Part shown: piece by piece, positions 12,438-53,612 of the stretch | Layout of the letters: each line of letters starts with the position of its first letter | How positions within the stretch are numbered: position 1 is the first letter of the stretch | Origin: Alphaproteobacteria bacterium | Lineage (GTDB): Bacteria; Pseudomonadota; Alphaproteobacteria; Rhodobacterales; Rhodobacteraceae | Assembly: GCA_029289325.1 (NCBI GenBank) | Contig: JARFTV010000024.1 | Span: 1 to 64,000, forward strand | Direction: 5' to 3' | Length of the DNA: 64,000 bases | Made by a program: the position numbers and the translations under genes | The notes under the pieces: generated by a model | Database searches by the model: none | Told to the model about the DNA's origin: nothing | What the model saw: the letters and a program-made list of their open reading frames with translations, nothing else

Positions 12438-12899
12438 CTACCGGGAGTGAAAATGCTGCACCGGTACTGCTTTGCCGCTCTGCTGTGTCGTGCAATCAGA
12501 TCCATGCTCCACCCCGTGCCCGAGGTCAGCCAGGATTGGGCAGTCGGGCCGGTGATCGCCGCAGCATGCGTCGGCTAGGTGGCGCAGTGTGTCGATCATG
12601 GCCTGCATCTCGCGCACCTTCCGTTCGAGGCCGTCGATCTGGTCCGTCGCAAGGCGTTTCACATCCGCGCTTTGACGGGTCCGGTCGCGCCAGAGTGCCA
12701 GAAGCTCTTCGATCTTCTCGACCGAAAAGCCAAGGTCGCGGGACCGACGAATGAACCGCAGCATCTGCACTTCAGTCGGAGAGTAGACGCGGTAGCCTGA
12801 TCCGGTCCGCCCTGCGGTGGGAATAAGGCGAATAGATTCGTAGTAGCGGATCATTTTGGCCGACACGCCCGAGGCCTTTGCCGCTTCACCAATGTTCAT
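12438..12899 (-). CDS. cueR: Cu(I)-responsive MerR-family regulator CueR
   Basis: A 153-residue MerR-family regulator starting MNIGEAAKASGVSAKMIRYYE, the canonical winged-helix opening. The C-terminal metal loop reads ACCGDHRPDCPIL, matching the two-cysteine Cu(I) site of CueR rather than the ZntR pattern. It lies 13 bases after the stop of copA on the same strand (8 bases if it starts at the alternative ATG at 12905), so both are one operon. CueR would activate the copA promoter and the chaperone promoter, whose operators are visible, and possibly the promoter of the cytochrome/PBP2 run. Confidence 0.9.
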   Translation of the reverse strand: MNIGEAAKASGVSAKMIRYYESIRLIPTAGRTGSGYRVYSPTEVQMLRFIRRSRDLGFSVEKIEELLALWRDRTRQSADVKRLATDQIDGLERKVREMQAMIDTLRHLADACCGDHRPDCPILADLGHGVEHGSDCTTQQSGKAVPVQHFHSR

Positions 12900-12912: not shown

Positions 12913-15390
12913 TCAATGCACAACTGCGGCCTGGAACCGCCGCAGCCGGAGGGCGTTTCCAAGAACAAAGACCGACGACAAGGCCATCGCGGCGGCAGCG
13001 AAGATCGGTGACAGAAGAACGCCGAAGCTCGGCCACAGCACGCCCGCGGCAACAGGGATCAAGGCAGCGTTATAGGCAAAGGCCCAGAAGAGGTTCTGCC
13101 GGATGTTGCGCATCACGGCCTTGGACAGCGCGATGGCGTCCGATACCGCCGTCAGGCGACCGGTCATGAGCACGACGTCCGCCGCCTCGATTGCTACGTC
13201 GGTCCCCGTTCCGACAGCAAGGCCAACGTCAGCCTCGGCCAGGGCCGGGGCATCATTGATGCCGTCGCCGACATAGGCGAGCTGTCCCAACGCCTTCAGT
13301 CGCTTGACTGCGGCGACCTTGCCGTCCGGCAGCACTTCGGCCACGATCTCGTCGATGCCGAGTTGGCGGGCGATGGCGCCTGCGGTGCGGGCGTTGTCGC
13401 CAGTGATCATCGCAACTTTCAGCCCCATAGTGTGCAGGGCGCGGATTGCCGTTGGCGTGGTCTCCTTGATCGGGTCCGCGACAGCAAGGATGGCAGCGAG
13501 TTTGCCGTCGATGGCGGCATAGAGCGGCGACTTGCCTTCGTCTCCCAATCGAGCGGCAGTATTCCCAAAGGGCGATACGTCAATCCCCAGTCGGGCCATG
13601 TAGCGATCAGCGCCGATCTCGATCCGCTGCCCGCCCGCCTGTGCAGTGACGCCGAAGCCGGTAACGGAGTCGAAGGCTGTGACGGCGGGCAGGGACAAAC
13701 CTTCGTCTTCTGCGGCCTTTACGATGGCGCGGGCGATCGGGTGCTCGGACTTCGCTTCGACGGCTGCTAAGAGTGACAGAACGGCGGCGCGATCGAAACC
13801 TGGTGCAAGATCGAGGTCGGTGAGGCTCGGCCTGCCCTCGGTTAGCGTGCCGGTCTTGTCGAGTGCCACGACCTTCACTCCCTGAAGAGACTGGAGCGCC
13901 TCGCCCTTGCGGAACAGCACCCCCATTTCGGCCCCGCGCCCGGTGCCCACCATGATCGAGGTCGGCGTGGCGAGGCCCATGGCGCAGGGGCAAGCGATGA
14001 TCAGCACGGCTACGGCATTGACAAGACCGAAGGTCAACGCGGGGTCGGGGCCGAAGATCAGCCAAACGGCAAAGGTCAGTGCTGCAAGCGCCATCACTAC
14101 CGGGACGAACCACATCGTGACCTTGTCGACGAGTGCCTGGATCGGCAGCTTGCCGCCCTGTGCCGCCTCGACCATGCGAATGATTTGAGCGAGCATCGTC
14201 GCCTCGCCCACCGCGGTGGCGCGGAACGTGAAGGCACCTGTCTGGTTTACAGTCCCGCCGGTTACCCCATTCCCAGCGGTCTTCTCCACCGGCAGCGGCT
14301 CGCCCGAAATCATGCTCTCGTCGATCCAGCTTGCGCCAGTCATTACCTCGCCATCGACTGGCACCCGCTCACCGGGACGGACCTCGACGACATCTCCCGG
14401 GCGCACCTCGGAAACAGGCACCTCGACCACCCCGCCGCTGCGGATCACCCGGGCTGTCTTGGCCTGTAGGCCGACCAGCCGCTTGATCGCCTCGGACGTG
14501 CGTCCTTTGGCGCGCGCTTCGAGGTAGCGACCGAGCAGGATCAGCGTGACGATCACCGCCGCCGCCTCGTAGTAGACATATGTTGTCCCGGCAGGCAGGA
14601 GCCCTGGAGCGAAGGTGGCGACCAGCGAATAGCCGTAGGCGGCCGAGGTGCCGACGGCGACCAGGCTGTTCATGTCGGGGGTGAGGCGGGCAAGCGCAGG
14701 CAGGCCCTTGCGGAAAAAGCGCAAGCCGGGGCCGAAGAGGACTGCCGAGGTCAGGGCGAACTGCAAATACCAACTGTTCTGCATCCCGATCGTGTTCATT
14801 ACGGCCATGTGGACCGACATGAACAGGTGCGACCCCATTTCCAGAACGAAGACCGGTAACGAAAGGGCGGCAGCGATTACAACATCTCGCTTCAGCAACG
14901 CTTCTTCTGCGGCCTTTTTCGCTGTCGCGCCATCATGCGCAGCCATAGCTGGGGCTGCGGGGCGGGCGTCATATCCCGCGTCTGCTACCGCTCGGGTCAG
15001 CGCCGCCACATCGGCCGATCCTCGCACTGTTGCCCGCTCGGTAGCCAGATTGACGGTGGCAGACGCTACCCCCGGCACTGATGCCAACGCCCGTTCGACC
15101 CTCGCCACGCAAGAGGCACAGGTCATGCCTTCGATAGCGAGATCGATGGGCTTTGCTGGCACATCGTAGCCCGCATCTTCGACGGCCCTCACCAACGCAC
15201 CGCGATCGAGCGCCACGCCCGTAACCTCGGCTCGCTCGGTGGCAAGGTTAACTGATGCCGTCGTCACCCCCGGCACAGCTTTCAAAGCCCGTTCGACATG
15301 TGCGACGCAGGACGCGCAAGTCATCCCGTCGACGTCGATCGTCATAAGATCGGTATCAATTCGAGACGATTGCTTTGCGAGCATGTTCAT
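12913..15390 (-). CDS. copA: Cu(+)-exporting P1B-type ATPase CopA
   Basis: An 825-residue copper-exporting ATPase with two N-terminal heavy-metal-associated domains (GMTCASC with CXXC at residues 25-28 and 91-94). It has the CPC membrane metal site in [11 protein letters not shown], the phosphorylation motif DKTGTLTEG, the TGES-like actuator ([11 protein letters not shown]), TGDNARTA and [16 protein letters not shown]. It pumps Cu(I) from cytoplasm to periplasm. The start at 15390 follows the CueR-type promoter at 15428-15455. An upstream in-frame start at 15480 would overlap that promoter and is rejected. It is followed by cueR. Confidence 0.95.
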
Positions 15391-18988: not shown

Positions 18989-19756
18989 TCAGCAAACTGG
19001 CGCTGCCTGGGCAGCCTCGTCTTCCACAATCTGGCGAAGGAGCGCGTAAGGGATTGCGCCATTCAGGGCGGTCCGCCCGATTACAAGACCTGGCGTGCCG
19101 ATGAAGCCAAAGATATCGGCGAGCGCTCGTGTTCGGTTCATCTCTTCCTGCACCTCTGCAGATGCCATGTCTTTGGCCAGCCGATCGACATCGAGGCCGA
19201 TATCCGCCGCCACCCTGAGGACTGAGGCTTCTTCGGCGACCAGAGGTGTTCGCATGAACCGACGCCGAAGTTCTGGTTGTTTGCCTTGCTTCGCGGCAGC
19301 GACCGACGCCCGCGCTGCAAGCTCGGAAGCGGGTCCGAAGATCGGAAGTTCATGCTGAACCAGCCAGAAGGAAGCAGGATGATCGGCCATCAGCGTGTCG
19401 AGGTCTCGCTCCAGCGCCCGGCAGTAGGGACAGCGGAACTCGCTGAAATAGGCAATGGGAATGACCCCCTCAGAACCGCTGTTGCCAAAGAGGGCAAGGC
19501 AGGGGTCAGCACGTACCGCTTCGGCACGCGCGCGGCGCTGGTCTGCATCCTGAGGCGGCGCATCGAGTCCGACAAGGGCCAGCGGTGTTCCGGAGGTCTG
19601 GCCAACCCCGTCAAGTCGGCGAAACGGCGGCAGATCCGCAATGTCCACATAGCGCGGCCCGCGGCCCGGGAGCCGGTCCCAGGGAAGGGCACGCAGACCA
19701 TAGATAAAGGCAACGATCCCGCCGAAGACGAGAAGGTCGCGGCGTCTCACGGTCAC
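18989..19756 (-). CDS. DsbA-like thioredoxin-fold protein
   Basis: A 255-residue exported or membrane-anchored protein. A hydrophobic helix near residues 7-22 follows a basic start (VTVRRRDLLVFGG). The thioredoxin fold shows YFSEFRCPYCRALERDL with active-site CPYC and, near the end, the cis-proline loop GTPGLVIGRTALNG. It belongs to the DsbA/DsbG-like family of periplasmic thiol oxidoreductases. The GTG start at 19756 overlaps the stop of the L,D-transpeptidase gene by four bases (GTGA), so the pair is translationally coupled. Confidence 0.82.
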   Translation of the reverse strand: MTVRRRDLLVFGGIVAFIYGLRALPWDRLPGRGPRYVDIADLPPFRRLDGVGQTSGTPLALVGLDAPPQDADQRRARAEAVRADPCLALFGNSGSEGVIPIAYFSEFRCPYCRALERDLDTLMADHPASFWLVQHELPIFGPASELAARASVAAAKQGKQPELRRRFMRTPLVAEEASVLRVAADIGLDVDRLAKDMASAEVQEEMNRTRALADIFGFIGTPGLVIGRTALNGAIPYALLRQIVEDEAAQAAPVC

Positions 19757-20316
19757 ACCACCGTCACGGGTGTGCCGACGGGCACCTGTTCGTAGAGCTG
19801 GATCACGTGCTCGTTCAGCATCCGGATACAACCGTTCGAGACGGACTGACCAATTGACCACGGCTCGGTCGTGCCATGGATACGGTAGTACGTGTCGCGC
19901 CCTTCCCGGTAGAGGTAGAGCGCCCGTGCGCCAAGGGGGTTGTTCGGCCCGCCGGGCACGCCGTCGGCGAACTGGGCATAGCGGTCAGGATTGCGGCGGA
20001 TCATGTCGTTCGTCGGTCGCCAGGACGGCCATTCGGCCTTGCGTTCGATGATCGCGGACCCCCTGAAGGCAAGCCCGGTCTTGCCGACACCGACTCCGTA
20101 ACGGATCGCCCGCTCGGTATCGAAGACGTGGTACAGAAAGAAGCTTCGCGGGAACACGAGGATCTGTCCGGGCGCGTGCTGCTCGCGGACGCGCACCTCG
20201 CGCGGCTGGAACTCGTCGGCCAGCACAAACGGCTCTGCGGTATGGGCCCGAAGGATGTTGGGCGAGGACAGCGCTGCAAGTGCGGCCCCACCAATGAGGA
20301 AGCGTCGGGAAATCAT
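19753..20316 (-). CDS. L,D-transpeptidase (YkuD domain)
   Basis: A 187-residue exported enzyme. The N-terminus MISRRFLIGGAALAAL looks like a Tat or Sec signal. The catalytic signature IHGTTEPWSIGQSVSNGCIRML contains the nucleophile Cys and upstream His of YkuD L,D-transpeptidases, which form 3-3 cross-links or attach lipoproteins to peptidoglycan using a Cys thiolate. It heads the three-gene minus-strand group with the DsbA-like and membrane proteins. It is only distantly related to the other two L,D-transpeptidases here. Confidence 0.9.
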   Translation of the reverse strand: MISRRFLIGGAALAALSSPNILRAHTAEPFVLADEFQPREVRVREQHAPGQILVFPRSFFLYHVFDTERAIRYGVGVGKTGLAFRGSAIIERKAEWPSWRPTNDMIRRNPDRYAQFADGVPGGPNNPLGARALYLYREGRDTYYRIHGTTEPWSIGQSVSNGCIRMLNEHVIQLYEQVPVGTPVTVV

Positions 20317-20353: not shown

Positions 20354-20656
20354 TCAGGAGAGGTGTCGCGGCGGAGGGGTGCGGGGACCCAAACTACGGC
20401 TGGAGCCCATGACCGGCGTAATCTCGAAATGCGACGATCCGGCCACCGCCATCAGAGTGACGAGCACTGGCTCGCTGGGGAAAACAAGCTGACATGTCCC
20501 GTGGCCTGATCCCTCGCCGCAGAGAGCATCCTGTATCAGGGGCTGGGCGTGAAGTGTGTCAGCATGCGCTCCGTTCGGCGATCGTTCTGAATGCGCCAGT
20601 CCGAAAAGGATGGCGAGCAGGAAGAAGCTGCACAGAAGGGCGGTAATCAATCGCAT
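20354..20656 (-). CDS. small secreted hypothetical protein (100 aa)
   Basis: A 100-residue protein beginning MRLITALLCSFFLLAILFGLA, a clear signal peptide or anchor. The mature part has two Cys (ALCGEGSGHGTCQLVFP) and no known motif. It ends 38 bases upstream of the start of the L,D-transpeptidase gene on the same strand and may share its promoter, which would then lie in the gap 20657-20837 with the CueR-like box. I do not recognise it. Confidence 0.55.
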   Translation of the reverse strand: MRLITALLCSFFLLAILFGLAHSERSPNGAHADTLHAQPLIQDALCGEGSGHGTCQLVFPSEPVLVTLMAVAGSSHFEITPVMGSSRSLGPRTPPPRHLS

Positions 20657-20785
20657 GGTTGGAGCATACACCCTCTCACCTAAGTGCCGACTGATCACAT
20701 CTAGGTGAAGCACCAAATTCCTTCCAGGATTGGCGAAAACGCAACGCATTCACCTGTTTGTGACCCGGCCGCGATGCAAAGCCGT

Positions 20786-20807
20786 TTGACCTTCCCACGT
20801 TGGAAGG
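20786..20807 (+). promoter_or_regulatory. CueR-like operator upstream of the cytochrome/PBP2 operon
   Basis: TTGACCTTCC, then CACGTT, then GGAAGG. This gives the CCTTCC-N6-GGAAGG dyad of CueR boxes and a -35-like TTGACC in the same register as at copA and copZ. The expected -10 hexamer 19 bases on (CAAGCC) is poor, so promoter strength is uncertain. It lies 31 bases before the L,D-transpeptidase gene at 20838 and 130 bases from the minus-strand gene at 20656. Confidence 0.75.
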
Positions 20808-20837: not shown

Positions 20838-21398
20838 ATGCGATTCACTCGACGGCTTTTTGTTGCCGGAGCACTTGCCGCGCCTTTCGTGACCGGTCGC
20901 GCCGCCAGCGCGTCGGAAGACACGCCTGGCCCGGTCCGTAACAACATCTCGGCTTTTCGCACCCACGAGTGGCAGGATCACTTCGATGCTCTGGGCGTCG
21001 GGATCATCATCTCTGACACGACGGCCAAGGTCCTCCAGCACTGGACGAGCGACGGTCAAATGTACCTCTACCCGACCTCGGTCCCGCTGTCGGACGAGCT
21101 GACCCGCCGGGGCTATACCGAGGTCGTCGAGAAACGGGTGAACCCGAGTTGGGCCCCGACACCGTCGATGCGGGAAAGGAACCCGGAATGGCCGGCCTTC
21201 GTGCCTGGCGGCGACCCGACCAACCCGCTCGGCACCCGCGCCCTTTACCTGTCGTGGCAATACTACCGCATCCATGGTACACACGACACGCGCAAGATCG
21301 GTCGCCGCTCGTCGAACGGCTGCATCGGGCTCTACAACGAACATATCGAGGAAGTTTTCGACCGGACGCCGGTCGGGACGCAAGTGAAGCTGATCTAG
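20838..21398 (+). CDS. L,D-transpeptidase (YkuD domain), paralogue of the one at 51492
   Basis: A 186-residue exported enzyme, signal MRFTRRLFVAGALAAPF. The catalytic block IHGTHDTRKIGRRSSNGCIGLYNEH is the YkuD signature with nucleophile Cys (only parts quoted: IHGTHDT, SSNGCIGLYNEH). Most of the mature protein matches the enzyme at 51492-52085 (NNISAFR, YPTSVPLSDELTR, NPLGTRALYLSW). It starts 31 bases after the CueR-like box with an AAAAAGGAG ribosome site and is first in the eleven-gene run. Confidence 0.9.
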   Translation: MRFTRRLFVAGALAAPFVTGRAASASEDTPGPVRNNISAFRTHEWQDHFDALGVGIIISDTTAKVLQHWTSDGQMYLYPTSVPLSDELTRRGYTEVVEKRVNPSWAPTPSMRERNPEWPAFVPGGDPTNPLGTRALYLSWQYYRIHGTHDTRKIGRRSSNGCIGLYNEHIEEVFDRTPVGTQVKLI

Positions 21399-21402
21399 CA
21401 AG

Positions 21403-21777
21403 ATGAAACCTTCGTCGACCTCACCGAACCCACTCAAGAACCTGTTTTCGCACAGGTTCTTGCGGTTCGTGTCGATGTGGCTTCTGTCCGTGGTGCTGAC
21501 GCTTGGCTTGGTCCTCGGACAGACCGCAGAGGCGGGCCCGGTCGAGGATCATCATCCCGGCACGTCGGTCGAGATCGCGGGCAACGCCGGGCAAGAGACC
21601 GCGCCGGCACCTGCTTGCCACCCGGGCCTCGCCTGTTCTGTTTTCGTGCTGCCCGATGGGCCGGTCACAGCACTGTCGTTGTCAATCGTGATCACTCTGC
21701 GACCGGACCTGACACAGTCGCAACGCCGCTTTGGCGGCCCGTCCGTCACCCTGCCTCCCCCCCGAACCCGGATCTGA
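21403..21777 (+). CDS. small exported hypothetical protein (124 aa)
   Basis: A 124-residue protein with a basic start and a hydrophobic segment at about residues 20-40 (FVSMWLLSVVLTLGLVLGQ), then a His-containing stretch (EDHHPGTS) and two Cys in ACHPGLACSVFVLP. It follows the L,D-transpeptidase by four bases. Layout resembles the small protein at 30542, which also sits before a copper protein and has a HCL-type cysteine. No family known to me. Confidence 0.55.
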   Translation: MKPSSTSPNPLKNLFSHRFLRFVSMWLLSVVLTLGLVLGQTAEAGPVEDHHPGTSVEIAGNAGQETAPAPACHPGLACSVFVLPDGPVTALSLSIVITLRPDLTQSQRRFGGPSVTLPPPRTRI

Positions 21778-21943
21778 CAGTCAGGCCGGACGTGCGTCTG
21801 ACGGTTCGATAGGCTCTCCGCAGCTCTGTCGACAGTTCAATCTCTGTCAGCCTGACACCAGACAGTTGTGCAAGCCGCACGATCCGCCGGAAGGGCGGGT
21901 CGCGGGATCGGTCAACAACAAGAAACCAAGGGCAGTCAGGCAG

Positions 21944-22588
21944 ATGAAACCACAATGGACAGGCGCTTTGGCGCTTGCCGCTTCCGCAGTTGCGGCAGTG
22001 GCGCTGGCACATAACGGGGCGACGGGTGTCGTCCTGGAACGGATGAACGGTATGACGGCGATGCGGGACACGGTGGCGGAGCTGGCGCCGATGATGCAAG
22101 GCACGATCCCCTACGACACATTTATCGTGTCGGAGGGTGCGAGCGTCATCGCTGGTCACGCGGGCGAGACGATGCTGTCGCTGTTCCCGGAAGGCAGCCT
22201 CGAAGGGGTGACCTATGCCAAGCCGGAAATCTGGTCCGACTGGCAGGACTTCGCAGCGCTTGCCGAGGAATTGAAGACCTACGCCGACGCTCTCGCCGTG
22301 GCGGCTCCGAACGGGCTGGAAAAGGCGCTTCCGCCCGCCGACGATATGGCCGGGATGGATCATTCGGCAATGACGATGACCCCGGCTCCGGAAGTCAAGG
22401 AGGGTTTCACAGTAGCGGAGCTGATGGGCTACGGCGAAAGAACCCAAGAGGTCCAGGTCGCGCGCGGCACATCGGACCCGGCGACGCTGGCGTTCGATCT
22501 GACGACGCTGGCCGCTGACGACCTCTTCACCCGGATCAGCGCCACCTGTTCGTCCTGCCATTCGCAGTACCGTGCGGGCCGGAACTGA
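21944..22588 (+). CDS. cytochrome c'-like (c556 family) protein with Met/His insert
   Basis: A 214-residue exported protein, signal about residues 1-23 (MKPQWTGALALAASAVAAVA). One c-type heme site lies at the very C-terminus, CSSCH at residues 202-206, as in cytochromes c' and c556. The preceding sequence has the four-helix pattern (MRDTVAELAPMMQG; WQDFAALAEELKTYADAL). An insert at about residues 135-150, AGMDHSAMTMTPAP, is Met/His-rich and resembles copper-binding segments. It is followed by a three-base gap to the diheme cytochrome gene. The region 21778-21943 before it has no gene. Confidence 0.85.
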   Translation: MKPQWTGALALAASAVAAVALAHNGATGVVLERMNGMTAMRDTVAELAPMMQGTIPYDTFIVSEGASVIAGHAGETMLSLFPEGSLEGVTYAKPEIWSDWQDFAALAEELKTYADALAVAAPNGLEKALPPADDMAGMDHSAMTMTPAPEVKEGFTVAELMGYGERTQEVQVARGTSDPATLAFDLTTLAADDLFTRISATCSSCHSQYRAGRN

Positions 22589-22590
22589 CC

Positions 22591-23574
22591 ATGCGGGGTT
22601 TGATCCGCGCTTCCGTCATTTTCCCGGCCGTGGCGGCGAGCCTCGGGGCCGGTGTCCTGGCGCTATGGCCCATCGGCGCGCCAGAGCCCGCCGCATTCCC
22701 GCCGGGGGATGCGGAACGCGGCGCCTATTTGGCCCGCGCCAGCGGTTGCGTGTCCTGTCACACCAACGCGACCGCCAAGGGGCTGGCGCTCGCTGGAGGT
22801 GCCCCGCTCGACACACCCTTTGGCACTTTCGTGCCCCCGAACATCACCCCGCACACCACTGCGGGGATCGGTGCATGGACCATTCAGGATTTCGCCAAGG
22901 CTGTTCGCCAGGGAGTCTCTCCGGAGGGTGACCCCTACTATCCGGTCTTCACCTATTCGTTCTACGCAGGCTTCACCGATCAAGAGATCGCCGACCTGTG
23001 GGAAGCATTCCGCACCGTTCCGCCGGTTGCGGATGCTGCCCCGACGCATGATGTCGGGTTTCCGTTCAATTTCCGCTCGGGCCTGAAGCTCTGGCGCGCT
23101 GCCTACCTCGACGCGCCGGAGACGGATGCGCTGATGGGCACATCATCGCCATGGAACCGCGGGCGTTTGCTGGTCGAAGGGGCGGCGCATTGCGCGGCCT
23201 GTCATACCGGCCGAACGCTTGCGGGCGGCTTGGACGACTCCGCCCGGTTCGCCGGAAACGACAGCCTTCCCGGCGGCAGCAAGGCACCGTCGATCCTGAC
23301 AGCCGATCTCCTCGAACGCGGTTGGACGGTCGCAAATATGGCCTATGCCCTGCAGACGGGCCTGCTGCCCAACGGGGATGTTTTTGGCGGCAGCATGGCC
23401 GAGGTCGTGGCCGAGGGCACCTCGTACCTGACCGACGCCGACCGCGAAGCCATCGCGACCTACCTGCTCGATCCCGCCGGCAGCGGGGACATTCCGGAAC
23501 CCGCTCCTCCTGTCACGGAGACCCCGATGGCGGGAATGGACCACTCGCAAATGGAGATGGGCAATGAGAACTAG
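22591..23574 (+). CDS. diheme c-type cytochrome
   Basis: A 327-residue exported cytochrome with two heme sites: CVSCH at residues 53-57 and CAACH at 201-205. An N-terminal hydrophobic segment (VAASLGAGVLALW) targets it to the periplasm or anchors it. The pattern resembles the small cytochrome subunits of membrane dehydrogenases (PNITPHTTAGIGAWT, LLVEGAAHCAACH). The tail again carries MAGMDHSQMEM, a Met/His motif. It overlaps the next gene by eleven bases. Electron-transfer partner not known. Confidence 0.88.
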   Translation: MRGLIRASVIFPAVAASLGAGVLALWPIGAPEPAAFPPGDAERGAYLARASGCVSCHTNATAKGLALAGGAPLDTPFGTFVPPNITPHTTAGIGAWTIQDFAKAVRQGVSPEGDPYYPVFTYSFYAGFTDQEIADLWEAFRTVPPVADAAPTHDVGFPFNFRSGLKLWRAAYLDAPETDALMGTSSPWNRGRLLVEGAAHCAACHTGRTLAGGLDDSARFAGNDSLPGGSKAPSILTADLLERGWTVANMAYALQTGLLPNGDVFGGSMAEVVAEGTSYLTDADREAIATYLLDPAGSGDIPEPAPPVTETPMAGMDHSQMEMGNEN

Positions 23575-23992
23575 AGTGCTCGCAGTGGCGCTTGCTCTGG
23601 GCGTCTTTGCCCTTGTGGCCGCGTTCATCTGGGCGACGGTGCGCACGCTCGATCCGCGAGACACCGTTGCGGATCGGGACGTGCCGACGGCCGAAGTGTC
23701 GGAAGTCCTTCCGGATGGTCGGATCGACGTCCAGGTCTATGCGCTCGGAAACCGGGATGTCCGCCTCGAGATCCAGTTCACACCGGATGCCGATGCCATC
23801 GAATCTGCTGCCATGAGGCCGGACGTGAACTTCGCGATGTTGGAGATGCATATGGACGGCTTTGATCCGCCGCTTCAGTTAGTCGAGGCCGGGGTCTGGC
23901 GAGCAAATCTCAAGTTGCCAATGGCTGGACGTTGGGTGGTCAGTGTTGGCTTTGGCGAGGATCGTGCAGAGGTTGAATTTGATGCAAAGTGA
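23564..23992 (+). CDS. FixH-like membrane-anchored protein
   Basis: A 142-residue protein with one N-terminal membrane segment (residues about 5-24, VLAVALALGVFALVAAFIWA), then a beta-rich domain with RLEIQF, LEMHMDGFDPPLQLVEAG and GRWVVSVGFGEDRAEVEF. The shape is that of FixH/YtkA-like proteins, which assist copper delivery or oxidase assembly. It overlaps both neighbours, consistent with a coupled operon. Assignment is by pattern, so moderate. Confidence 0.6.
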   Translation: MRTRVLAVALALGVFALVAAFIWATVRTLDPRDTVADRDVPTAEVSEVLPDGRIDVQVYALGNRDVRLEIQFTPDADAIESAAMRPDVNFAMLEMHMDGFDPPLQLVEAGVWRANLKLPMAGRWVVSVGFGEDRAEVEFDAK

Positions 23993-24473
23993 CGGACCGA
24001 CACAACAAGCAAGGTACGGTGACACCCTTCACCGGGGCATTCGCGGCATCGCTGTCGGCATCGCGCTGTTCGCCGTTCTCGGGACGGTGACCGCGGTCTG
24101 GGCGAACCCCGTCTTTGTCCGCATGACCCCGGTTGGCCCGTGGGAGTTCGGGGCCACCGTCCTGACGGCACTCTTGGCTGGAGTGACAGTGGCGCTCTGG
24201 GTTCCCCGATGCAGACTGGGGACGTCCGGGGCAGGCGGTCTTGCGAGTTTCCTCGGCATCGCCTGTCCGACCTGCAACAAGGTCCTGATGCTGATCTTCG
24301 GTGGTCCGGCGCTGCTTGCTTGGTTCGACCCGGTAAGGCCCTGGCTCGCCGCGGCCGGGGTCATCATCATGAGCATGGCGGCGCTCAGGACGTGGCGTGC
24401 GTTTCGCGATGACAGGGCAGGTGCCGCCGTCGTCGTCAGCAGCGAAAATCCTCCCATGGGAGGGCTAAAGTGA
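23982..24473 (+). CDS. multi-span membrane protein with CPTCN motif
   Basis: A 163-residue inner-membrane protein with about four hydrophobic helices. The distinctive motif is IACPTCNKVLMLIFGGPALLAWF, with CPTC placed at a membrane boundary, suggesting metal binding or thiol-disulfide exchange. The rest is not recognisable. The ATG at 23982 overlaps the previous gene by eleven bases, and its stop overlaps the GTG of the next gene (GTGA). Unknown family, but clearly part of the operon. Confidence 0.6.
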   Translation: MQSDGPTQQARYGDTLHRGIRGIAVGIALFAVLGTVTAVWANPVFVRMTPVGPWEFGATVLTALLAGVTVALWVPRCRLGTSGAGGLASFLGIACPTCNKVLMLIFGGPALLAWFDPVRPWLAAAGVIIMSMAALRTWRAFRDDRAGAAVVVSSENPPMGGLK

Positions 24474-25207
24474 ATACTTCAACAGGTTCGCTTTCTGGGA
24501 TGCGCCGACTTGTGCGGAAGGTGATGGTCCGACACGCGCTTGTGGCCATGGTCGCGACGGGTCTCTTGATCGGCTTTGCTTCGGTTCATGCGGAATGGAG
24601 CCCGATGCACCGCTGGAACCGCGCGTTCGGTGATGCCTCGCTCGTCTTGATTGCCCTGTCGATGGGTTTAGGGCCGCTGACACGCTTCCTGCGGGTGGCG
24701 GTTCCGCTTCTGCCCTTCCGCCGAGAGATGGGCATTTACGGCTGCCTTCTAGTACTTGTGCATGCATCAATCATCCTCGTCGGCTGGGTCCAATGGGATC
24801 TGATGCGGCTCTTAGGGTTCGAATGGCATCCCGAACTTCTGGCCTATGTCATGTACCAGCATGGCTTCGGTCTCGCCAATGCCATCGGCATCGCTGCGCT
24901 GGTCCTCGCGGCACTGCTGGCGGCAACCTCCAGCGATTTCGCGATGCGCCGTCTTGGCGTCTCGGGATGGAAGTTCCTGCAGATGGGTGTTCTGCCGATG
25001 TGGTGGCTGACCGTGGTCCATGTTGCCTATTTCCTGTTCATGCATTTCCTGAGCTTCCACCGGGCGACACCAGAGCCGAACCCCCTGCAGTACTGGTTCG
25101 TCGGGCTGGTTGTGATCGTCCTTGGGCTCCGCACCGGGGCCTACCTGCGTACGATTCGCGCCAAGGCTGCTCTTGAGCCGCAAAGAGAGCAGGGAAGCCA
25201 TGCGTAG
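24470..25207 (+). CDS. ferric-reductase-like transmembrane protein
   Basis: A 245-residue inner-membrane protein of about six helices. Intramembrane histidines (LVLVHASIILVGW, YMYQHGFG-like spacing, TVVHVAYFLFMHFLSF) fit a two-heme b ferric-reductase or MsrQ-like fold. The GTG start is used and overlaps the previous stop. It may pass electrons from quinol or flavin partners to periplasmic acceptors such as the cytochromes encoded beside it, which is inferred. Confidence 0.75.
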   Translation: MNTSTGSLSGMRRLVRKVMVRHALVAMVATGLLIGFASVHAEWSPMHRWNRAFGDASLVLIALSMGLGPLTRFLRVAVPLLPFRREMGIYGCLLVLVHASIILVGWVQWDLMRLLGFEWHPELLAYVMYQHGFGLANAIGIAALVLAALLAATSSDFAMRRLGVSGWKFLQMGVLPMWWLTVVHVAYFLFMHFLSFHRATPEPNPLQYWFVGLVVIVLGLRTGAYLRTIRAKAALEPQREQGSHA

Positions 25208-27152
25208 ATCGGAACGTGACCTCGTGCAGGCGGCGAAAAAGACAACCCGCCGGGCACTGATCGTTGGTGGTGCGATGACGTCAGTGGTGGGCGTCCTTGG
25301 TGTCCGGATGTGGCAACTGAGCGTCCGTGATGCCGAGCAATACTACCTGCTGGCCGAGGAAAACCGGATCAGCCTGCGGCTGGTGCGACCGGACAGGGGG
25401 CGCATCCTTGATCGGACTGGAAAAATCGTTGCGGACAATGAGCAGGCATATCGCATCACGCTGGTGAAGGAAGAAGCCCGCGATGTCGACGACGTTCTGG
25501 AAAAGCTGCAGGTGCTGCTCGGCCTGGACGCAGAGACTGTCTCCAAGGTCAAGGAGCAGATCGACCGTGTTCGAGCCTTCGTGCCGGTAACGGTGAAAGA
25601 CCGCGTCACGTGGGAAGAATTGTCGATCGTGGCACTGAACTCACCTGTCCTTCCCGGTGTGCAGCCCGAGATGGTCCTGTCGCGCGTCTATCCTTTCGGG
25701 CCGGATTTCGCGCATCAGGTCGGTTATGTCGGGCCAGTCAGCGACAGCGATCTGGAAAACGAAGCGGCTGACAATGAGCCGTTGCTCCGCCTGCCCGATT
25801 TTGAAGTCGGCAAGACAGGAGTTGAACGAAGCCACGAACGCACCTTGCGCGGCTTGCCAGGCACGCGCCGCGTCGAGGTCAACGTGTCCGGCCGCACAAT
25901 GCGCGAACTCGCTCTCGATCCGGCCACCCCGGGCCCGGACATGCAGATCACTCTCGACCACCACTTGCAGAACTTCATGCGCGTCCGGCTGGAAGGCCAA
26001 AGCGCGGCCGCGATCGTGATGGATGTGACGAACGGCGATCTGCTCGGCTGCACGTCCGCCCCCTCGTTTGATCCGAACCTTTTCGTGCGTGGGATTTCCA
26101 GCCGAGACTACAATGCGCTCCGAGACAGCGAGTATCGGCCGCTCGCCGACAAGTCGGTGCAGGGCGCGTATCCACCTGGATCGACGATCAAGATGTCGAA
26201 TGCGCTGGCCGCGCTGGAAACCGGGCTGATGGACCCGGAAGAGACTGTCGCCTGCAATGGCTATGTCGAGATCTCCGGCCGAAGGTTCCACTGCTGGAAG
26301 CGCGGTGGTCATGGCCGAGTGAACATGGTCGGCGCGCTGCGCGAGTCTTGCGACGTCTACTTCTACGAGGTCGCGCAGCGCATCGGCATTGACGGCATCT
26401 TCGCGATGAACGACCGGCTGGGGCTTGGCCAGAAGTACGACCTTCCGCTGTCCGGCATGGCGCACGGCAACAATCCATCGCGTGCTTGGAAGCAGGAACG
26501 GTACGGGCAGGACTGGCTGATCGGGGACACCATCAATGCCTCGATTGGGCAAGGCTTCACGCTCGCCTCGCCGATCCAGCTTGCCACCATGACGGCGCGA
26601 CTGGCTTCGGGGACCGCCGTGTTGCCCCGACTGGTGCGACCGCGTACCGGGCAGGACCAGGATACGGCTGCTCCGGCCCCGCTCGGTCTGTCGGCCGATG
26701 CACTGGCCATTGTGCGACAGGGCATGTTCGAGGTCTCGAACCACGAGCGCGGGACGGCCTATTCCTCGCGGATCGCCGATCCGACATTGGCGATGGCCGG
26801 CAAGACGGGAACGAGCCAGGTCTTCTCGATCACCGCTGCCGAGCGGGCGGCAGGCGTCCGCTCGCAGGACGAGCTGCCGTGGAACCGGCGCGATCACGCG
26901 CTGTTCGTGGCCTTTGCACCCTTTGACGCGCCCCGCTTTGCTGTCACGATCGTGGTGGAACACGGCGGTGGCGGGTCAACGGCAGCGGCGCCAATTGCGC
27001 GCGACATCATGCTGTTTGCACAGCATGGCGGCCTGCCGCCTGAGGACGCCTATCCGGCATCGCAGAGGGCGCGCATACGGGAGGACCTCGCCCTGCTGTC
27101 CGAACGCATCCTGCCGCCGGACGGCATCACCGCCACGGTGAGCCGGACATGA
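25200..27152 (+). CDS. mrdA: penicillin-binding protein 2 (peptidoglycan D,D-transpeptidase)
   Basis: A 650-residue class B PBP. One N-terminal membrane anchor lies at about residues 18-35. The PBP dimerisation region starts near RLVRPDRGRILDRTGKIVA, and the transpeptidase domain carries the SxxK motif in YPPGSTIKM, the SCD triad (LRESCDVYFYEVAQRIG) and KTGTS. The overall pattern matches PBP2/MrdA, the elongation enzyme. The ATG at 25200 overlaps the ferric-reductase-like stop by eight bases. A 3' fragment of a second PBP2 is at 43307. A plasmid copy of a housekeeping PBP is unusual. Confidence 0.9.
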   Translation: MRRSERDLVQAAKKTTRRALIVGGAMTSVVGVLGVRMWQLSVRDAEQYYLLAEENRISLRLVRPDRGRILDRTGKIVADNEQAYRITLVKEEARDVDDVLEKLQVLLGLDAETVSKVKEQIDRVRAFVPVTVKDRVTWEELSIVALNSPVLPGVQPEMVLSRVYPFGPDFAHQVGYVGPVSDSDLENEAADNEPLLRLPDFEVGKTGVERSHERTLRGLPGTRRVEVNVSGRTMRELALDPATPGPDMQITLDHHLQNFMRVRLEGQSAAAIVMDVTNGDLLGCTSAPSFDPNLFVRGISSRDYNALRDSEYRPLADKSVQGAYPPGSTIKMSNALAALETGLMDPEETVACNGYVEISGRRFHCWKRGGHGRVNMVGALRESCDVYFYEVAQRIGIDGIFAMNDRLGLGQKYDLPLSGMAHGNNPSRAWKQERYGQDWLIGDTINASIGQGFTLASPIQLATMTARLASGTAVLPRLVRPRTGQDQDTAAPAPLGLSADALAIVRQGMFEVSNHERGTAYSSRIADPTLAMAGKTGTSQVFSITAAERAAGVRSQDELPWNRRDHALFVAFAPFDAPRFAVTIVVEHGGGGSTAAAPIARDIMLFAQHGGLPPEDAYPASQRARIREDLALLSERILPPDGITATVSRT

Positions 27153-27625
27153 TGCACCGTCTCAGAAGGGTGTCCTGCCGAAGCTTTCTTGGGGTCGCCA
27201 TGACCGCAGTCGCCCTAGTTCTTCCGCCGGTTCCCGCGCGAGCGTTCTTCCATGATGCGCCCGACATCGAAGACGGGCGAGTCATTTACGCGGCCAAGTG
27301 CGCGTCCTGTCACGGTGCCAACCTGGAAGGGCAGCCGGACTGGCAGTCGGCGAGGGAGGACGGCACCTATCCCGCGCCGCCCCACGACGAGACGGGCCAC
27401 ACCTGGCACCATGGGGACGCGATGCTGCGGGACTACATCCGTCGCGGCGGGCAGGCGGTGCTGGACGATATGGGGGTCGACTTCACCTCCGGCATGCCCG
27501 GGTTTGGCGGTGAGCTGACCGAGGACGACATCGAGGCCGTCCTCGCTTATATCCGGTCGACCTGGCCCGACCGCATTCGTGCCGCACAGGCTGAACGCAG
27601 CCAGATGGAAGCAGGTTCGCCTTGA
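27149..27625 (+). CDS. monoheme c-type cytochrome
   Basis: A 158-residue exported cytochrome, signal MMHRLRRVSCRSFLGVAMTA up to ARA. One heme site, CASCH in IYAAKCASCHGANLEG, and a C-terminal Met ligand candidate in TSGMPGFGGELTED. It looks like a class I cytochrome c. ATGA overlap with the PBP2 stop. It would shuttle electrons in the periplasm. Confidence 0.88.
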   Translation: MMHRLRRVSCRSFLGVAMTAVALVLPPVPARAFFHDAPDIEDGRVIYAAKCASCHGANLEGQPDWQSAREDGTYPAPPHDETGHTWHHGDAMLRDYIRRGGQAVLDDMGVDFTSGMPGFGGELTEDDIEAVLAYIRSTWPDRIRAAQAERSQMEAGSP

Positions 27626-27735
27626 AGCCGCAAGTAAGGCCATCGACCTCCCAATTCCCGCTTGCCTCTCCAGGGACTAGAGGGTGCAGACCGCCTGAAA
27701 CTCAAAATCTTCATCCGTCACACAAGGCTCTTCCC

Positions 27736-28461
27736 ATGCGCGTCACGTCAATCCTGTTTGCTATCACGCTCGTTTTCGCTCCCGGCCTCCCCCTGGCGCA
27801 GGAGATTACGGAAGATCGGATCAAGGAACTGGTCGCCGAAACCTTGCGCGAGAACCCGGAGCTTGTGCTCGAGGCTCTCCAGACGCTGGAGGCGCGCCAG
27901 GCAGAGGCCCAAGCTGCCGCCGTTGCCGCGACCCTGGCCGACGAGCGCGCCCTGCTGGAGCGCGCCCCCAACGCTCCGGTCCTCGGCAACCCGGAAGGCG
28001 ACGTGACGGTGGTGGAGTTCTTCGATTACAACTGTCCCTATTGCAAACGCGCGATGCCTGAAATCGACGCCCTGCTGGCCGAGGACGGAAACATCCGTCT
28101 TGTTCTGAGAGAATGGCCAATCCTCAGCGAAGGATCAGCGATCGCGGCGCGGGCCGCTTTGGCTGCACGGAAGCAGAACAAGTATGCTGAACTGCACAAT
28201 GCACTGATGGGTGCGCGGGCGAAGTTGGACGAGCAGTCGGTGCTGCGGATCGCGGGCGAGGTCGGACTCGATGTCGAGCAGCTCAAGGTCGACATGCAAT
28301 CGCCCGAAGTCGAGGAACATATCGCCACGTCGCTACGTCTGGCCGAGGCTCTCGGCTTCAACGGCACACCGTCATTCGTGGTGGGTGATCAACTGATTCC
28401 GGGCTTTGTTGAGAAGGCTCAGCTTGCCGAGGTGGTAGCCGCCGCGCGGGCCGCCGAATGA
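27736..28461 (+). CDS. DsbA-like thiol oxidoreductase (Com1/DsbA family)
   Basis: A 241-residue exported protein, signal MRVTSILFAITLVFAPGL. A coiled N-terminal part (ETLRENPELVLEALQTLE) precedes the thioredoxin fold with VVEFFDYNCPYCKRAMPEI, active site CPYC, and the cis-Pro loop NGTPSFVVGDQLIPG. The N-terminal extension is the layout of Com1-like DsbA proteins and of ScsC. I chose 27736 because the frame upstream to 27622 is not coding-like. ScsC-type proteins act in copper tolerance, which fits here. Confidence 0.85.
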   Translation: MRVTSILFAITLVFAPGLPLAQEITEDRIKELVAETLRENPELVLEALQTLEARQAEAQAAAVAATLADERALLERAPNAPVLGNPEGDVTVVEFFDYNCPYCKRAMPEIDALLAEDGNIRLVLREWPILSEGSAIAARAALAARKQNKYAELHNALMGARAKLDEQSVLRIAGEVGLDVEQLKVDMQSPEVEEHIATSLRLAEALGFNGTPSFVVGDQLIPGFVEKAQLAEVVAAARAAE

Positions 28462-29114
28462 GTATCCGTCTTACGCGTCTTTTCGGTTTCCGACTTCAGC
28501 GGCCTTTCACGATCACCGAGACGGTCTTGGGCCGGATCAGGCATTCCCTCGTGGCAGCCACTTTGTGGATCGCCTTGACAGGGATTGCTTCGGCGCATTC
28601 ATTCACCGTCGGCCTTCTGGTCGTCGGCGAGGACGTTGACGCAAGTCTGGCAGAAGCGGTGCGCGGTTTCCTCCTAGCGGCCGACGAACGGGACGGGCAC
28701 GCCAACGAAACATCGGACGGACATCTCGGTGGGGTTGATGTGCAACTGCTGCCGCTGCCACGAGATGCGGCGGGGCTGGTCGAAGGACTGTTCGGTACGC
28801 CCGACGAGCCGACCGATGTCGTCATTGTCATTGGCGCCGAACCCGCGGCCAGCGACGCCGCGCGCGCGTATGCCTCGGCAAGCACGGTCTTGCGGCAGTT
28901 CGTACTGCCGGATGGGTGGGACAGCGCAGACGGAACCGACGGTTTTGTGTCGCGTTACCGGCTCGCCTATGGCGCAGCGCCCGGCGTAATGGCGGGGACG
29001 GCCTATCATTCTGCTCGCAGGCTCGACGCCGCAGTCAGACCATTGGACGGTGTGGTACCCAAGGAAGCACTGCTAAACGCCTGGAGGTCAACCGAATCCG
29101 GTCTGTCCTGGTGA
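28458..29114 (+). CDS. periplasmic-binding-protein-like hypothetical protein
   Basis: A 218-residue protein with an N-terminal signal or anchor (residues about 28-46, LVAATLWIALTGIASA). After cleavage it begins HSFTVGLLVVGEDVD. The alternating pattern (VVIVIGAEPAASDAARAYA, AYGAAPGVMAGTAYHSARRLDAAV) resembles a substrate-binding fold of ABC branched-chain type, cut short. It overlaps the DsbA-like gene by ATGA and is the last gene of the run. No ABC permease is nearby. Confidence 0.6.
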   Translation: MSIRLTRLFGFRLQRPFTITETVLGRIRHSLVAATLWIALTGIASAHSFTVGLLVVGEDVDASLAEAVRGFLLAADERDGHANETSDGHLGGVDVQLLPLPRDAAGLVEGLFGTPDEPTDVVIVIGAEPAASDAARAYASASTVLRQFVLPDGWDSADGTDGFVSRYRLAYGAAPGVMAGTAYHSARRLDAAVRPLDGVVPKEALLNAWRSTESGLSW

Positions 29115-30541: not shown

Positions 30542-30895
30542 ATGGCGTTCCTCACATTTCGCATGCATGTCCTGATCCTCGCCGCCTACGTCTTTGCGGC
30601 GATCATTCCCGTATTGGCTCTCGGCGAACGGCAGCAAGCTCAGGCTGACCATGCACAGATGATGGCGATGGCCGGCCATCTGGCGCACATGCCCGCGACT
30701 GACGGCCCGATGGACCTGACACAGCAGCTGATCTGCCAACAGCACTGCCTTTTCGCAGCGGCGACCTTTCCTGCGCCGGACCGGGTTGCGGAAACTGTCG
30801 CGCGGTCCTCCGATGTGGAGGCTAGTGTCGACATCCTTGCCGCCTCGCTGGCCATTCCGCCCCCAGGTCCGCCTCCGAAGATCGCCGTGATCTGA
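30542..30895 (+). CDS. small exported hypothetical protein (117 aa)
   Basis: A 117-residue protein with a hydrophobic stretch at about residues 8-26 (MHVLILAAYVFAAIIPVLAL) and a His/Met-containing mature part (HAQMMAMAGHLAHMPATDGPMD), then CQQHCLFAAATFPAP. The Met/His spacing suggests a metal site. It precedes the multicopper oxidase by 66 bases and probably shares its transcript. No family known to me. Confidence 0.55.
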   Translation: MAFLTFRMHVLILAAYVFAAIIPVLALGERQQAQADHAQMMAMAGHLAHMPATDGPMDLTQQLICQQHCLFAAATFPAPDRVAETVARSSDVEASVDILAASLAIPPPGPPPKIAVI

Positions 30896-30961: not shown

Positions 30962-32437
30962 ATGTCGCCCTTTTCTCGCCGCGGCTTTCTGGCCGCTTCT
31001 GCGGCCACGGCCGCTTCACTGATGCTTCCCGCACGGGTCCGGGCCCAGTCCGGCCGAATGTCGCTGACCGCCGCCACCCGCACCATTGACGTGCGGGGCA
31101 AAGCCGCAACCGTCTGGGGGCTTCTGGACGGCGCTGGCCGGTCCGGCCTTGTCCTCGATCCGGACCAGGCGTTCGCGGTCGATTTGACAAACGCGCTGGC
31201 CGAGCCAACGATTATTCACTGGCATGGTCAGATCCCCGACAACGCGCAGGATGGAGTGCCCGACCTGCCGATGCCGATGCTGCAACCCGGTGAATCCCGC
31301 GCCTACGATTTCGCGGCACGGCCCGGAACACACTGGATGCACGCCCATATCCCCGAGCATGAAATGATGCTGCTGGCCGCGCCTCTGGTGGTGCGGCGAG
31401 CCGAGGATGTGGCGGCAGACCGGAAGGAAGTGACGCTGTTCCTGCACGACTTTTCCTTCAAGCCACCTGCCGAGGTGCTGGCCGAGATCACCGGCGGCGC
31501 TTCGATGGCCGGGATGGATCATGGCCAGATGGGGCAGGGCGGCATGGACCATTCCGGAATGGACATGGGTGGCATGGGTCAGGGGGACATGATGGCGATG
31601 CCGGGGATGGATGGCATGGCGATGGACCTGAACGACTACAACTTCGACGCCTATCTCGCCAATGATCGCACGCTGGACGACCCCGAAGTGGTTCCGATCG
31701 ACAAGGGCGGCCGCGTTCTCGTCCGCGTCATCAACGCTGCGGCCGCCACCGTGTTTTGGATCGACACTGGCGCGCTGCCGGGACGGCTGGTCGCGGTGGA
31801 CGGCGAGCCGGTGCGGCCTTTGCCCGGCAGCCGCTTTGGCGTCGCAATGGGCCAGCGGCTGGATATCGAACTGGATGTGCCGGGCGAGGGCGGGGCCTTC
31901 CCGATCCTTGCCCTGCGCGAAGGTGCCAAGGAAAGGACGGGTGTCATCCTTGCCACGCCGGGCGCGGCGGTGACCAGGATCGCCGAGATGTCGGAGGCCG
32001 ACCATCCGGCCTTCAGCGGTGATCTGGCGCAGGAGGGTGCTCTGCGCGCCGTCACCCCGCTGCCCGAACGCGCGCCAGCCTCGCAGCCGATGCTGATGCT
32101 GGGCGGCACCATGATGCCCTATGTCTGGACGATCAACGGCCAGACTTGGGGGTCCCATGTGCCGGTGACTGCGAAATCCGGCGACCGAGTCGAGATCATG
32201 TTCCACAACATGTCGATGATGGCGCATCCGATGCACCTGCACGGCCACGCCTTCCAGGTAGTGGGTGTCGGCATGGACCGGATCGCAGGCGCGGTCCGCG
32301 ACACCGTGCATGTGCCGCCGATGGGCATGGTGACGGTCGCGGTGGACGCGGGCGAGGCGGCGCGGTGGATGCTGCATTGCCACCACATGCCGCACCTTTC
32401 GACCGGCATGATGACCGAGTTCGCGGTGTCGGCCTGA
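30962..32437 (+). CDS. multicopper oxidase, copper-resistance type
   Basis: A 491-residue exported oxidase. It begins with a Tat signal (SPFSRRGFLAASAATAAS). Copper-ligand motifs are in order: HWHGQ, HWMHAH, HPMHLHGH and HCHHMPH with the T1 region LSTGMMTEF. A Met/His-rich insert lies at about residues 182-220 (MAGMDHGQMGQ, MDHSGMDMGG, MAMPGMDGM). The family (CopA of Pseudomonas, CueO, CumA) oxidises Cu(I) to Cu(II) in the periplasm. A hairpin follows its stop. Confidence 0.93.
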   Translation: MSPFSRRGFLAASAATAASLMLPARVRAQSGRMSLTAATRTIDVRGKAATVWGLLDGAGRSGLVLDPDQAFAVDLTNALAEPTIIHWHGQIPDNAQDGVPDLPMPMLQPGESRAYDFAARPGTHWMHAHIPEHEMMLLAAPLVVRRAEDVAADRKEVTLFLHDFSFKPPAEVLAEITGGASMAGMDHGQMGQGGMDHSGMDMGGMGQGDMMAMPGMDGMAMDLNDYNFDAYLANDRTLDDPEVVPIDKGGRVLVRVINAAAATVFWIDTGALPGRLVAVDGEPVRPLPGSRFGVAMGQRLDIELDVPGEGGAFPILALREGAKERTGVILATPGAAVTRIAEMSEADHPAFSGDLAQEGALRAVTPLPERAPASQPMLMLGGTMMPYVWTINGQTWGSHVPVTAKSGDRVEIMFHNMSMMAHPMHLHGHAFQVVGVGMDRIAGAVRDTVHVPPMGMVTVAVDAGEAARWMLHCHHMPHLSTGMMTEFAVSA

Positions 32438-43305: not shown

Positions 43306-43306
43306 G

Positions 43307-43456
43307 GACATCATGCTTTTTGCCCAGCATGGCGGCCTGCCGCCCGAGGAGGCCTATCCGACCTCGCAACGCGGGCGCATCCGGGAAGATCTTGCGCAAC
43401 TGTCCGAACGCATCCTGCCGCCGGACAGCGCAACCCCCACGGTGAGCCGGACATGA
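43307..43456 (+). pseudogene. 3' fragment of a second PBP2 gene
   Basis: Fifty codons match the end of the intact PBP2 gene at 27005-27152 (DIMLFAQHGGLPPEEAYP, IREDLAQLSERILPPD, VSRT then stop). The nucleotide differences are mostly silent or conservative, so this is the tail of a divergent paralogue rather than a fresh duplicate. It starts right at the IS end, and the rest of that gene is absent. Confidence 0.82.
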
Positions 43457-44445: not shown

Positions 44446-44501
44446 GATGTGCCGTTTCTTCAAGGGGCGACACCAGACCGTGAGGCGTGAAAAATTTCGT
44501 T

Positions 44502-44521
44502 CCGGCAAAGGCATTTGCCGG
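44502..44521. repeat. inverted repeat in the leader of the left helix-turn-helix gene
   Basis: CCGGCAAA, GGCA, TTTGCCGG: eight-base perfect arms, upstream of the gene ending at 43600. It is identical in the right copy (60397-60416), which suggests function as operator or hairpin. Confidence 0.5.
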
Positions 44522-44662
44522 TTGAACGGGTCCAAAGCTCGCGCTAGATTCCCACCACCACGAGGAAATCAGTGCGGCGTCGGGCCTATAGTCTGGCGTC
44601 GTTTCTGTTTCTGGGGGTCTCAGTCTTTCGATCGTATCGTGGCTAGGCCAAAGGTCAGGTCA

Positions 44663-52085: not shown

Positions 52086-52168
52086 TTTCTTGTACCGCCA
52101 CACTCTTTGACCCAAGCGGGTTTCCGTGACGGGTTTCACCCTTGGAATCCAGAAGGAACAAGCAGGCG

Positions 52169-53494: not shown

Positions 53495-53522
53495 GGATTT
53501 TGCTTTCTGCAGTCATATGGTC

Positions 53523-53540: not shown

Positions 53541-53545
53541 ACAAA

Positions 53546-53561: not shown

Positions 53562-53612
53562 AATCTGCCCTATGCCTTTACTTGTCAATCCATCCCATGC
53601 GACACTGACGCG

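Follow-up and report, generated by a model that had tools for sequence, protein, structure and literature searches.

Eleven consecutive genes at positions 20838-29114 of a 64,000-nucleotide stretch from an alphaproteobacterium of the Rhodobacteraceae (the window; contig JARFTV010000024.1, 64,259 bases, of assembly GCA_029289325.1, 4.17 Mb in 120 contigs) encode, among others, an L,D-transpeptidase (LDT), a second PBP2 and three c-type cytochromes. On balance, we read this run as a CueR-controlled envelope-protection operon of the plasmid-type copper-resistance islands of Rhodobacterales, which would provide spare cross-linking enzymes together with Cu(I)-handling cytochromes. The sequences support a pair of tasks, spare cross-linkers and copper-tagged cytochromes, that are probably governed by a single copper switch; a physical or functional link between them was not seen in the sequence. 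Copper resistance of Gram-negative bacteria is usually framed as efflux, oxidation and sequestration. An operon of this content behind a CueR-type switch points to direct protection of envelope targets, names PBP2 as a new candidate target and suggests that copper is not only pumped out but that wall and periplasm are also defended against it. We regard the run as a variant of copper-resistance determinants, with envelope protection as its likely mechanism.

Composition of the run

All eleven genes listed in a preliminary description of the window were found, each on the + strand. The first (20838..21398) encodes a YkuD-type LDT (PF03734, 78.6 bits, cut-off 23.4) and the second (21403..21777) HP2, a small protein without Pfam match, which has a hydrophobic N-terminal part and equal length in the six islands described below. 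A c'-type (c556-like) cytochrome with an internal MAGMDHSAM follows (21944..22588; PF01322, 77.8 bits), then a diheme cytochrome c with a C-terminal MAGMDHSQMEM tail (22591..23574; PF00034 37.3 and PF13442 32.8 bits, over cut-off). The next two genes encode a FixH/YtkA-like protein (23564..23992) and the CPTCN protein, a small membrane protein with the motif GIACPTCN (23982..24473). Both are present as described, but the FixH label is weak: the profiles stay below cut-off (PF05751, 19.5 bits against 23; YtkA PF13115, 25.0 against 25.9), and the CPTCN protein gave Pfam matches only far below cut-off. Its residues G92, I93, A94, C95, P96, C98 and N99 are invariant in an alignment of 47 sequences; its AlphaFold model is weak (pLDDT 59.6).

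The seventh gene (24470..25207) encodes a ferric-reductase-like membrane protein (FRE; Ferric_reduct PF01794, 32 bits, cut-off 28) with His47, His98 and His184 in 55/55 homologues and His197 in 53/55. It is followed by the genes for PBP2 of the MrdA family, the island paralogue (25200..27152; TIGR03423, 680 bits, cut-off 455), a monohaem cytochrome c (27149..27625; PF00034, 50.1 bits; one CxxCH) and a DsbA-like protein with a ScsC N-terminal domain (27736..28461; PF01323, 97.3 bits; PF18312 (ScsC_N), 36.3 bits, cut-off 25.8). The last gene (28458..29114) encodes HP11, a protein of no family with weak resemblance to type-1 periplasmic-binding-proteins; scans with Pfam and NCBIfam profiles gave no match, its AlphaFold model is weak (pLDDT 57.3) and Foldseek found nothing at E ≤0.001 (best E 0.0096, TM 0.22). 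The content originally claimed was confirmed for the three c-type cytochromes (one, two and one CxxCH, each a predicted haem site), for the two cross-linking enzymes and for the ferric-reductase-like and DsbA-like members, the profiles of these last four all being over cut-off.

Neighbouring genes had been described as mostly overlapping. Short overlaps occur at most junctions, but two gaps of 166 and 110 bp depart from this picture. In order, the distances are +4 bp (LDT to HP2), +166 (HP2 to cytochrome c'), +2 (c' to diheme), -11 (diheme to FixH-like), -11 (FixH-like to CPTCN), -4 (CPTCN to FRE), -8 (FRE to PBP2), -4 (PBP2 to cytochrome c), +110 (cytochrome c to DsbA) and -4 (DsbA to HP11).

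Conservation in related islands

The same run was found on three named plasmids, of Neotabrizicola shimadae, Tabrizicola piscis and Gemmobacter fulvus, and on contigs of two further genomes (G010 and G121). The order of all eleven genes is identical in these five islands and the window; 7 of 10 junctions are equal in length in all six, and the others vary by 3 bases (HP2 to c'), 6 (cytochrome c to DsbA) and 12 (FRE to PBP2). When the window was compared with the five like islands, the ratio of non-synonymous to synonymous substitution rates (dN/dS) of the LDT gene was 0.04-0.11 in the four of five comparisons that allowed its computation.

An alignment of the CPTCN protein was scanned against a collection of named genomes; 95 relatives were obtained and the best 80 of these loci analyzed. 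A full-length PBP2 of the window's type (type A, 79-100% identical) is encoded in 39 and a diverged full-length PBP2 (type B, 59-64%) in eight, and in one (L106) a PBP2 72% identical is truncated by the contig end. No PBP2 match was present in the DNA examined of 29/80 loci, which is explained for some by an early contig end. There is redundancy among the 39 type A loci: several are near-copies, three (L091, L093 and L095) are copies of the run on one Pseudogemmobacter bohemicus contig, and the G010 and G121 contigs, already counted among the six islands, recur as L067 and L071. Three contigs with runs of this kind had been binned as Verrucomicrobiaceae (L075), Porticoccus (L098) and Cyclobacteriaceae (L106), perhaps through binning errors in metagenome assemblies rather than owing to transfer.

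Of the 39 type A loci, 31 have the full set of eleven genes in the same order. Five are interrupted by contig ends (L064, L068, L072, L075 and L083), L098 and L100 are without the last three genes, and L101 departs in that the last gene is missing and the matches to cytochrome c and DsbA are located elsewhere. The preliminary description had left it to a search whether this order recurs; since it does, in the six islands as in these 31 loci, the doubt that it might be conserved nowhere is answered. Recurring order and junction lengths, together with a low dN/dS of PBP2 (0.05-0.10), mark the arrangement as more than a chance one. In type B loci the CPTCN gene lies directly upstream of PBP2 and a FRE match was found in none of the eight; the c'-type and diheme cytochromes were matched in 7/8 (L125 is cut there) and the FixH-like protein in 4/8.

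Nine loci contain LDT, CPTCN and FRE without PBP2 and without the pair of c'-type and diheme cytochromes; six of them have a FixH-like match, and in some the contig ends soon after FRE. Because of these loci the three genes seem to make up an independent module. The cytochrome core, too, occurs without PBP2 in related islands, and since either part can do so, the run appears to consist of separable modules.

Probable copper control and copper genes

The window was searched for the pattern TTGACCTTCC-N6-GGAAGG, which we take to be the layout of a CueR operator. One site, TTGACCTTCCCACGTTGGAAGG (20786..20807, +), has no mismatch; it lies 30 bp upstream of the LDT start codon ATG at 20838. The next-best sites are three with 3 mismatches each (0.46 expected with up to 3 mismatches). 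Two of these fall between a copper ATPase gene and the heavy-metal-domain gene divergent from it, a gap in which one would expect a CueR site; the remaining one lies within the second copper ATPase gene. The bare palindrome CCTTCC-N6-GGAAGG, lacking TTGA, has five other sites in the window with 2 mismatches, about the number expected by chance.

For 36 of the 39 type A loci, the sequence at this position ahead of the LDT in the run was available for inspection. The full palindrome is present in 23, and in the other 13 TTGACCTTCC is kept and the right half changed, so that both halves are missing together in 0/36. Over all loci 35 exact sites were counted, overlapping and repeated loci included.

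A gene for the copper sensor CueR is located at 12438..12899 (-; TIGR02044, 167.6 bits, cut-off 147.4), adjacent to a copper P-type ATPase gene (12913..15390, -; TIGR01511, 592.9 bits, cut-off 397), one of two copper ATPase genes in the window. A divergent pair encoding a DsbA-like protein and an LDT (18989..20316, -; PF01323, PF03734) occupies the same place in all six islands. Downstream of the run lies a multicopper oxidase gene (30962..32437, +) with the motif MAGMDHGQM; PF07731, PF07732 and PF00394 are over cut-off, and the CopA-type model TIGR01480 is not reached (172.9 bits against a cut-off of 478.95). With copper ATPases, multicopper oxidase, DUF411 and DUF305 as markers of our own choice in tblastn searches, at least one copper-type gene was found near the run in 38/39 type A and 8/8 type B loci, the exception, L068, being a short contig. 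By sequence, the copper link of the run is strong, given the operator, the CueR gene, the copper ATPases and the copper-type genes at 38 of 39 loci.

The island PBP2

The catalytic motifs SxxK, SCD and KTG(T/S) are intact in 52/52 island PBP2 copies. On the chromosome of the source genome a further PBP2 is encoded, with 58% identity to the island copy; a RodA-family gene follows it directly. Two RodA/FtsW-family genes are present in this genome, the one on which this check was made, namely on contig C100 just after the chromosomal PBP2 and on contig C5; none was found in the window. Compared with the chromosomal mrdA-rodA arrangement, the island protein belongs to that equivalog family too and has every catalytic motif, but forms a separate clade and is without a RodA neighbour.

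A maximum-likelihood tree was built from 27 rows of the family and 33 island copies, the other 19 of the 52 being near-copies that were omitted. Types A and B together make up a single clade in it (100/100); as the family rows were the best-scoring ones, this sample leans towards similarity. The sole row labelled chromosomal inside the clade, L029, is the island copy of genome G006, identical to L120. In a second tree 14 island and 16 Rhodobacterales chromosomal PBP2s group at 100/100 against 28 other alphaproteobacterial PBP2s, a grouping that places the origin of the island PBP2 inside or beside the Rhodobacterales line. Its dN/dS against the five like islands is 0.05-0.10, indicating purifying selection, and 0.15 against a type B copy, a comparison in which dS approaches saturation. 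Among the matches listed in a survey that scored four candidates per genome, at least 5 of 295 family genomes have another PBP2 with an E-value of 1e-100 or lower. Four of these second copies are at least 92% identical to the query and the G006 island copy 60%; the other matches listed are at most 60% identical.

Residues C352, C365, H371 and C384 are present in 52/52 island copies and align in the window PBP2 with D, D, H and C of the solved MrdA chain 8zpc. According to excerpts of PMC9974482, the zinc site D350/D365/H371/C384 of Acinetobacter PBP2 is important for stability and rod shape. We consider a site with three thiolates a plausible copper target. The idea that altered metal-site residues make the island PBP2 copper-tolerant was rejected: the C/C/H/C positions are equal in 7 island and 26 chromosomal PBP2s (33/33). 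With these residues unchanged, the island PBP2 would therefore help by dose, by compensation or through other differences. A C-terminal remnant of another PBP2 copy was observed downstream of the run at 43298-43453 (+), 81% identical over 52 residues or 86% over 49.

The cytochromes and a parallel operon

A MAGMDHSxM-like motif occurs in four of the 70 predicted open reading frames (ORFs) of the window and in no other: in the c'-type cytochrome, in the tail of the diheme cytochrome, in the multicopper oxidase and, as MEGMDHSNM, in a DUF305 protein. Among type A homologues it was found in 35/41 c'-type and 39/43 diheme cytochromes. We infer from the motif that the cytochromes bearing it would bind Cu(I).

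A parallel operon of multicopper oxidase (MCO) type is present on the Roseobacter plasmid pDSHI03 of Dinoroseobacter shibae (L018), with the order LDT, cytochrome c, c'-type cytochrome, diheme cytochrome, multicopper oxidase, cytochrome c and DsbA. Its LDT (75%), c'-type (37%), diheme (60%), cytochrome c (60%) and DsbA (64%) are homologous to those of the run, and it likewise adjoins a copper ATPase gene and cueR. The two differ in that a multicopper oxidase stands in the slot of the run's FixH-like, CPTCN, FRE and PBP2 genes; moreover, the cytochromes of pDSHI03 are without MAGMDHSxM, and such an operator was not found upstream of its LDT. In four MCO-type islands the motif is present in 0/5 c'-type and 0/5 diheme cytochromes. 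Because an oxidase occupies the same slot, a shared oxidative task of run and MCO-type operon is likely by analogy. The copper island of pDSHI03 may also bring a spare cytochrome c assembly, since genes at 4823-11174 of L018 are annotated as DsbE, CcmI, a haem lyase of CcmF/NrfE type, a DsbD-domain protein and a cytochrome c-type biogenesis protein.

Proposed role and alternatives

Copper is described as an inhibitor of LDTs in E. coli (as cited there) and, by measurement, in V. cholerae in excerpts of PMC11390936, and of lipoprotein acylation in E. coli in excerpts of PMC6538781; inhibition of c-type cytochrome assembly appears as a title in the reference list of PMC7558416. In the mechanism which we favour, a rise in Cu(I) would cause CueR to turn on the operon along with the copper ATPase. 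In one arm, the LDT, with its catalytic Cys, and the second PBP2, if both work under copper, would substitute for cross-linkers disabled by copper; in the chromosomal PBP2, copper could occupy three Cys and one His at the place of the known zinc site. In the other arm, the c'-type and diheme cytochromes with their Met/His-rich motifs may bind and oxidise Cu(I), accepting its electrons; alternatively, the b-haem-type membrane protein and the small cytochrome c would be their partners in electron transfer. The ScsC-like DsbA would tend exposed thiols.

A fuller version of this reading is offered tentatively: a mobile CueR-switched operon in which the spare elongation-type PBP2 and LDTs keep the wall cross-linked when the housekeeping enzymes are disabled by copper, the MDHSxM cytochromes, as Cu(I)-binding electron acceptors, let the respiratory chain, and not only a multicopper oxidase, oxidise periplasmic copper, and PBP2 is a new copper target by way of its thiolate site. 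The envelope-protection reading predicts copper at the thiolate metal site of PBP2 and reduction of the cytochromes by Cu(I), both of which bear on the question which periplasmic processes copper affects. The preliminary description had proposed a redox chain that protects peptidoglycan under copper. Its copper link was borne out by the sequence and its gene order is conserved, but that redox chain and wall protection act jointly is something we still only infer.

Several observations weigh against an envelope-protection operon. Only remnants of PBP2 are present in L076, L080 and L102, and none in L103. The operator was not found upstream of the LDT in two MCO-type islands, L018 and L020, the latter having one exact site elsewhere. 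The association of LDTs with CueR is modest: 5 of 100 LDTs lie near CueR against 1.25 expected, from three of 14 genomes chosen for few contigs and a CueR over cut-off (counting pDSHI03 round the circle gives three more LDTs within 15 kb of CueR). The two gaps in the run leave room for internal promoters. Nothing is seen in the identical C/C/H/C residues that would make the island PBP2 more copper-tolerant, and inhibition of PBP2 by copper was not found in the literature searched. The motif expression was composed after the window had been seen; type B cytochromes are mostly without the motif (c'-type 2/7, diheme 0/7), and the c' homologues of MCO-type islands have other Met-rich stretches. 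Finally, HP2, HP11 and the CPTCN protein remain unexplained by this reading.

Some of these points fit compensation instead: the cell's LDTs would be inactivated by copper, and extra D,D-cross-linking by the island PBP2 would make up for this, PBP2 itself not being a copper target. Inhibition by copper is documented for LDTs in the excerpts of PMC11390936, inhibition of PBP2 was not met in the searched literature, and the metal-site residues are equal in island and chromosomal PBP2. Compensation leaves unexplained, however, why a dedicated PBP2 is carried instead of any D,D-transpeptidase and why the island has LDTs of its own; we regard it as rather unlikely. For the cytochromes and FRE the main rival is a reductive task, in which electrons from quinol would pass via the b-haem-type protein to the periplasmic cytochromes and the ScsC-like DsbA and keep the LDT and other thiols reduced, in the manner of MsrQ or ScsB. 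The invariant His residues of FRE, its match to Ferric_reduct with weak matches to MsrQ and MamZ, and the ScsC_N domain over cut-off in DsbA are in line with it. The scores for MsrQ and MamZ are far below cut-off, though, the DsbD/ScsB and MsrP families were unmatched among the eleven proteins in the scans made, and the copper-binding-like motifs are located on the cytochromes; such an arm seems to us decidedly improbable.

It is also conceivable that a mobile copper island acquired envelope genes which have no copper-specific role, as the location of the run on plasmids, the PBP2 fragment elsewhere in the window and the decay of PBP2 in a few islands would allow. Such hitch-hiking fits poorly with the conservation of gene order, junctions and operator-like site, the low dN/dS and the single clade of dedicated PBP2s, and we give it very little credence.

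Comparison with other systems

A copper operon with PBP2 was not described in the open-licence PubMed Central titles and opening lines of abstracts searched; because the search covered only these, this counts weakly as evidence of novelty. For a plasmid-bearing relative under copper, PMC6308992 reports CueO together with two other multicopper oxidases, as well as CutE (Lnt); the run is not mentioned in its excerpts. The copper-inducible lit2/lgt2 element of Listeria and Enterococcus (Armbruster 2019, as reported in excerpts of PMC8689077 and PMC7387801) resembles the run, by these accounts, in being a mobile, copper-induced resistance element with its own copy of an envelope enzyme; it differs in serving Gram-positive lipoprotein modification, whereas the run concerns peptidoglycan cross-linking and cytochromes.

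The ScsC N-terminal domain of the DsbA-like protein recalls the suppressor of copper sensitivity (Scs) system, but a ScsB/DsbD-like partner was not matched among the eleven proteins in profile scans. With MsrPQ the run shares a membrane protein of the Ferric_reduct family; however, FRE reaches 23.3 bits with the MsrQ model (cut-off 130), and MsrP was not matched in the run. Its score for MamZ is likewise far below cut-off (35.3 bits against 650), and with respect to FixGHIS the FixH-like protein stays under the FixH cut-off. Relatives of FRE in other phyla were seen near copper-type and envelope genes, on a Deinococcus plasmid (L016; undecaprenyl-diphosphate phosphatase) and on a Cytobacillus plasmid (L017; Lgt, a MurE-type ligase and LTA synthase).

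Other elements of the window

Three small proteins without Pfam family, at 20354-20749 (-), 21403-21777 (+; HP2) and 30542-30895 (+), each show by eye two closely spaced Cys and may constitute one copper-island family.

Spare copies of Lnt, LspA, DsbB and DsbA are encoded at 49586-59098. A Zn/Cd/Pb-type ATPase lies nearby, as does a MerR regulator scoring below every cut-off (110.7 bits for CadR-PbrR, 109.1 bits for CueR). LspA and DsbB had been considered as support for the copper reading and were rejected, being located near this ATPase and a MerR regulator that does not score as CueR. The spare lipoprotein enzymes may belong to the unit of another metal and were therefore not counted. An extra full-length Lnt was found in 7/52 family genomes with few contigs; all nine copies adjoin an extra LspA and lie within 8 kb of a MerR gene below the CueR cut-off.

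Two ORFs at 43600-44535 (-) and 59498-60430 (-), 82% identical over 311 residues, flank a module with SCO, PCu(A)C, Lnt, LDT, LspA and the Zn/Cd/Pb-type ATPase, as if the DNA between them were a composite mobile unit.

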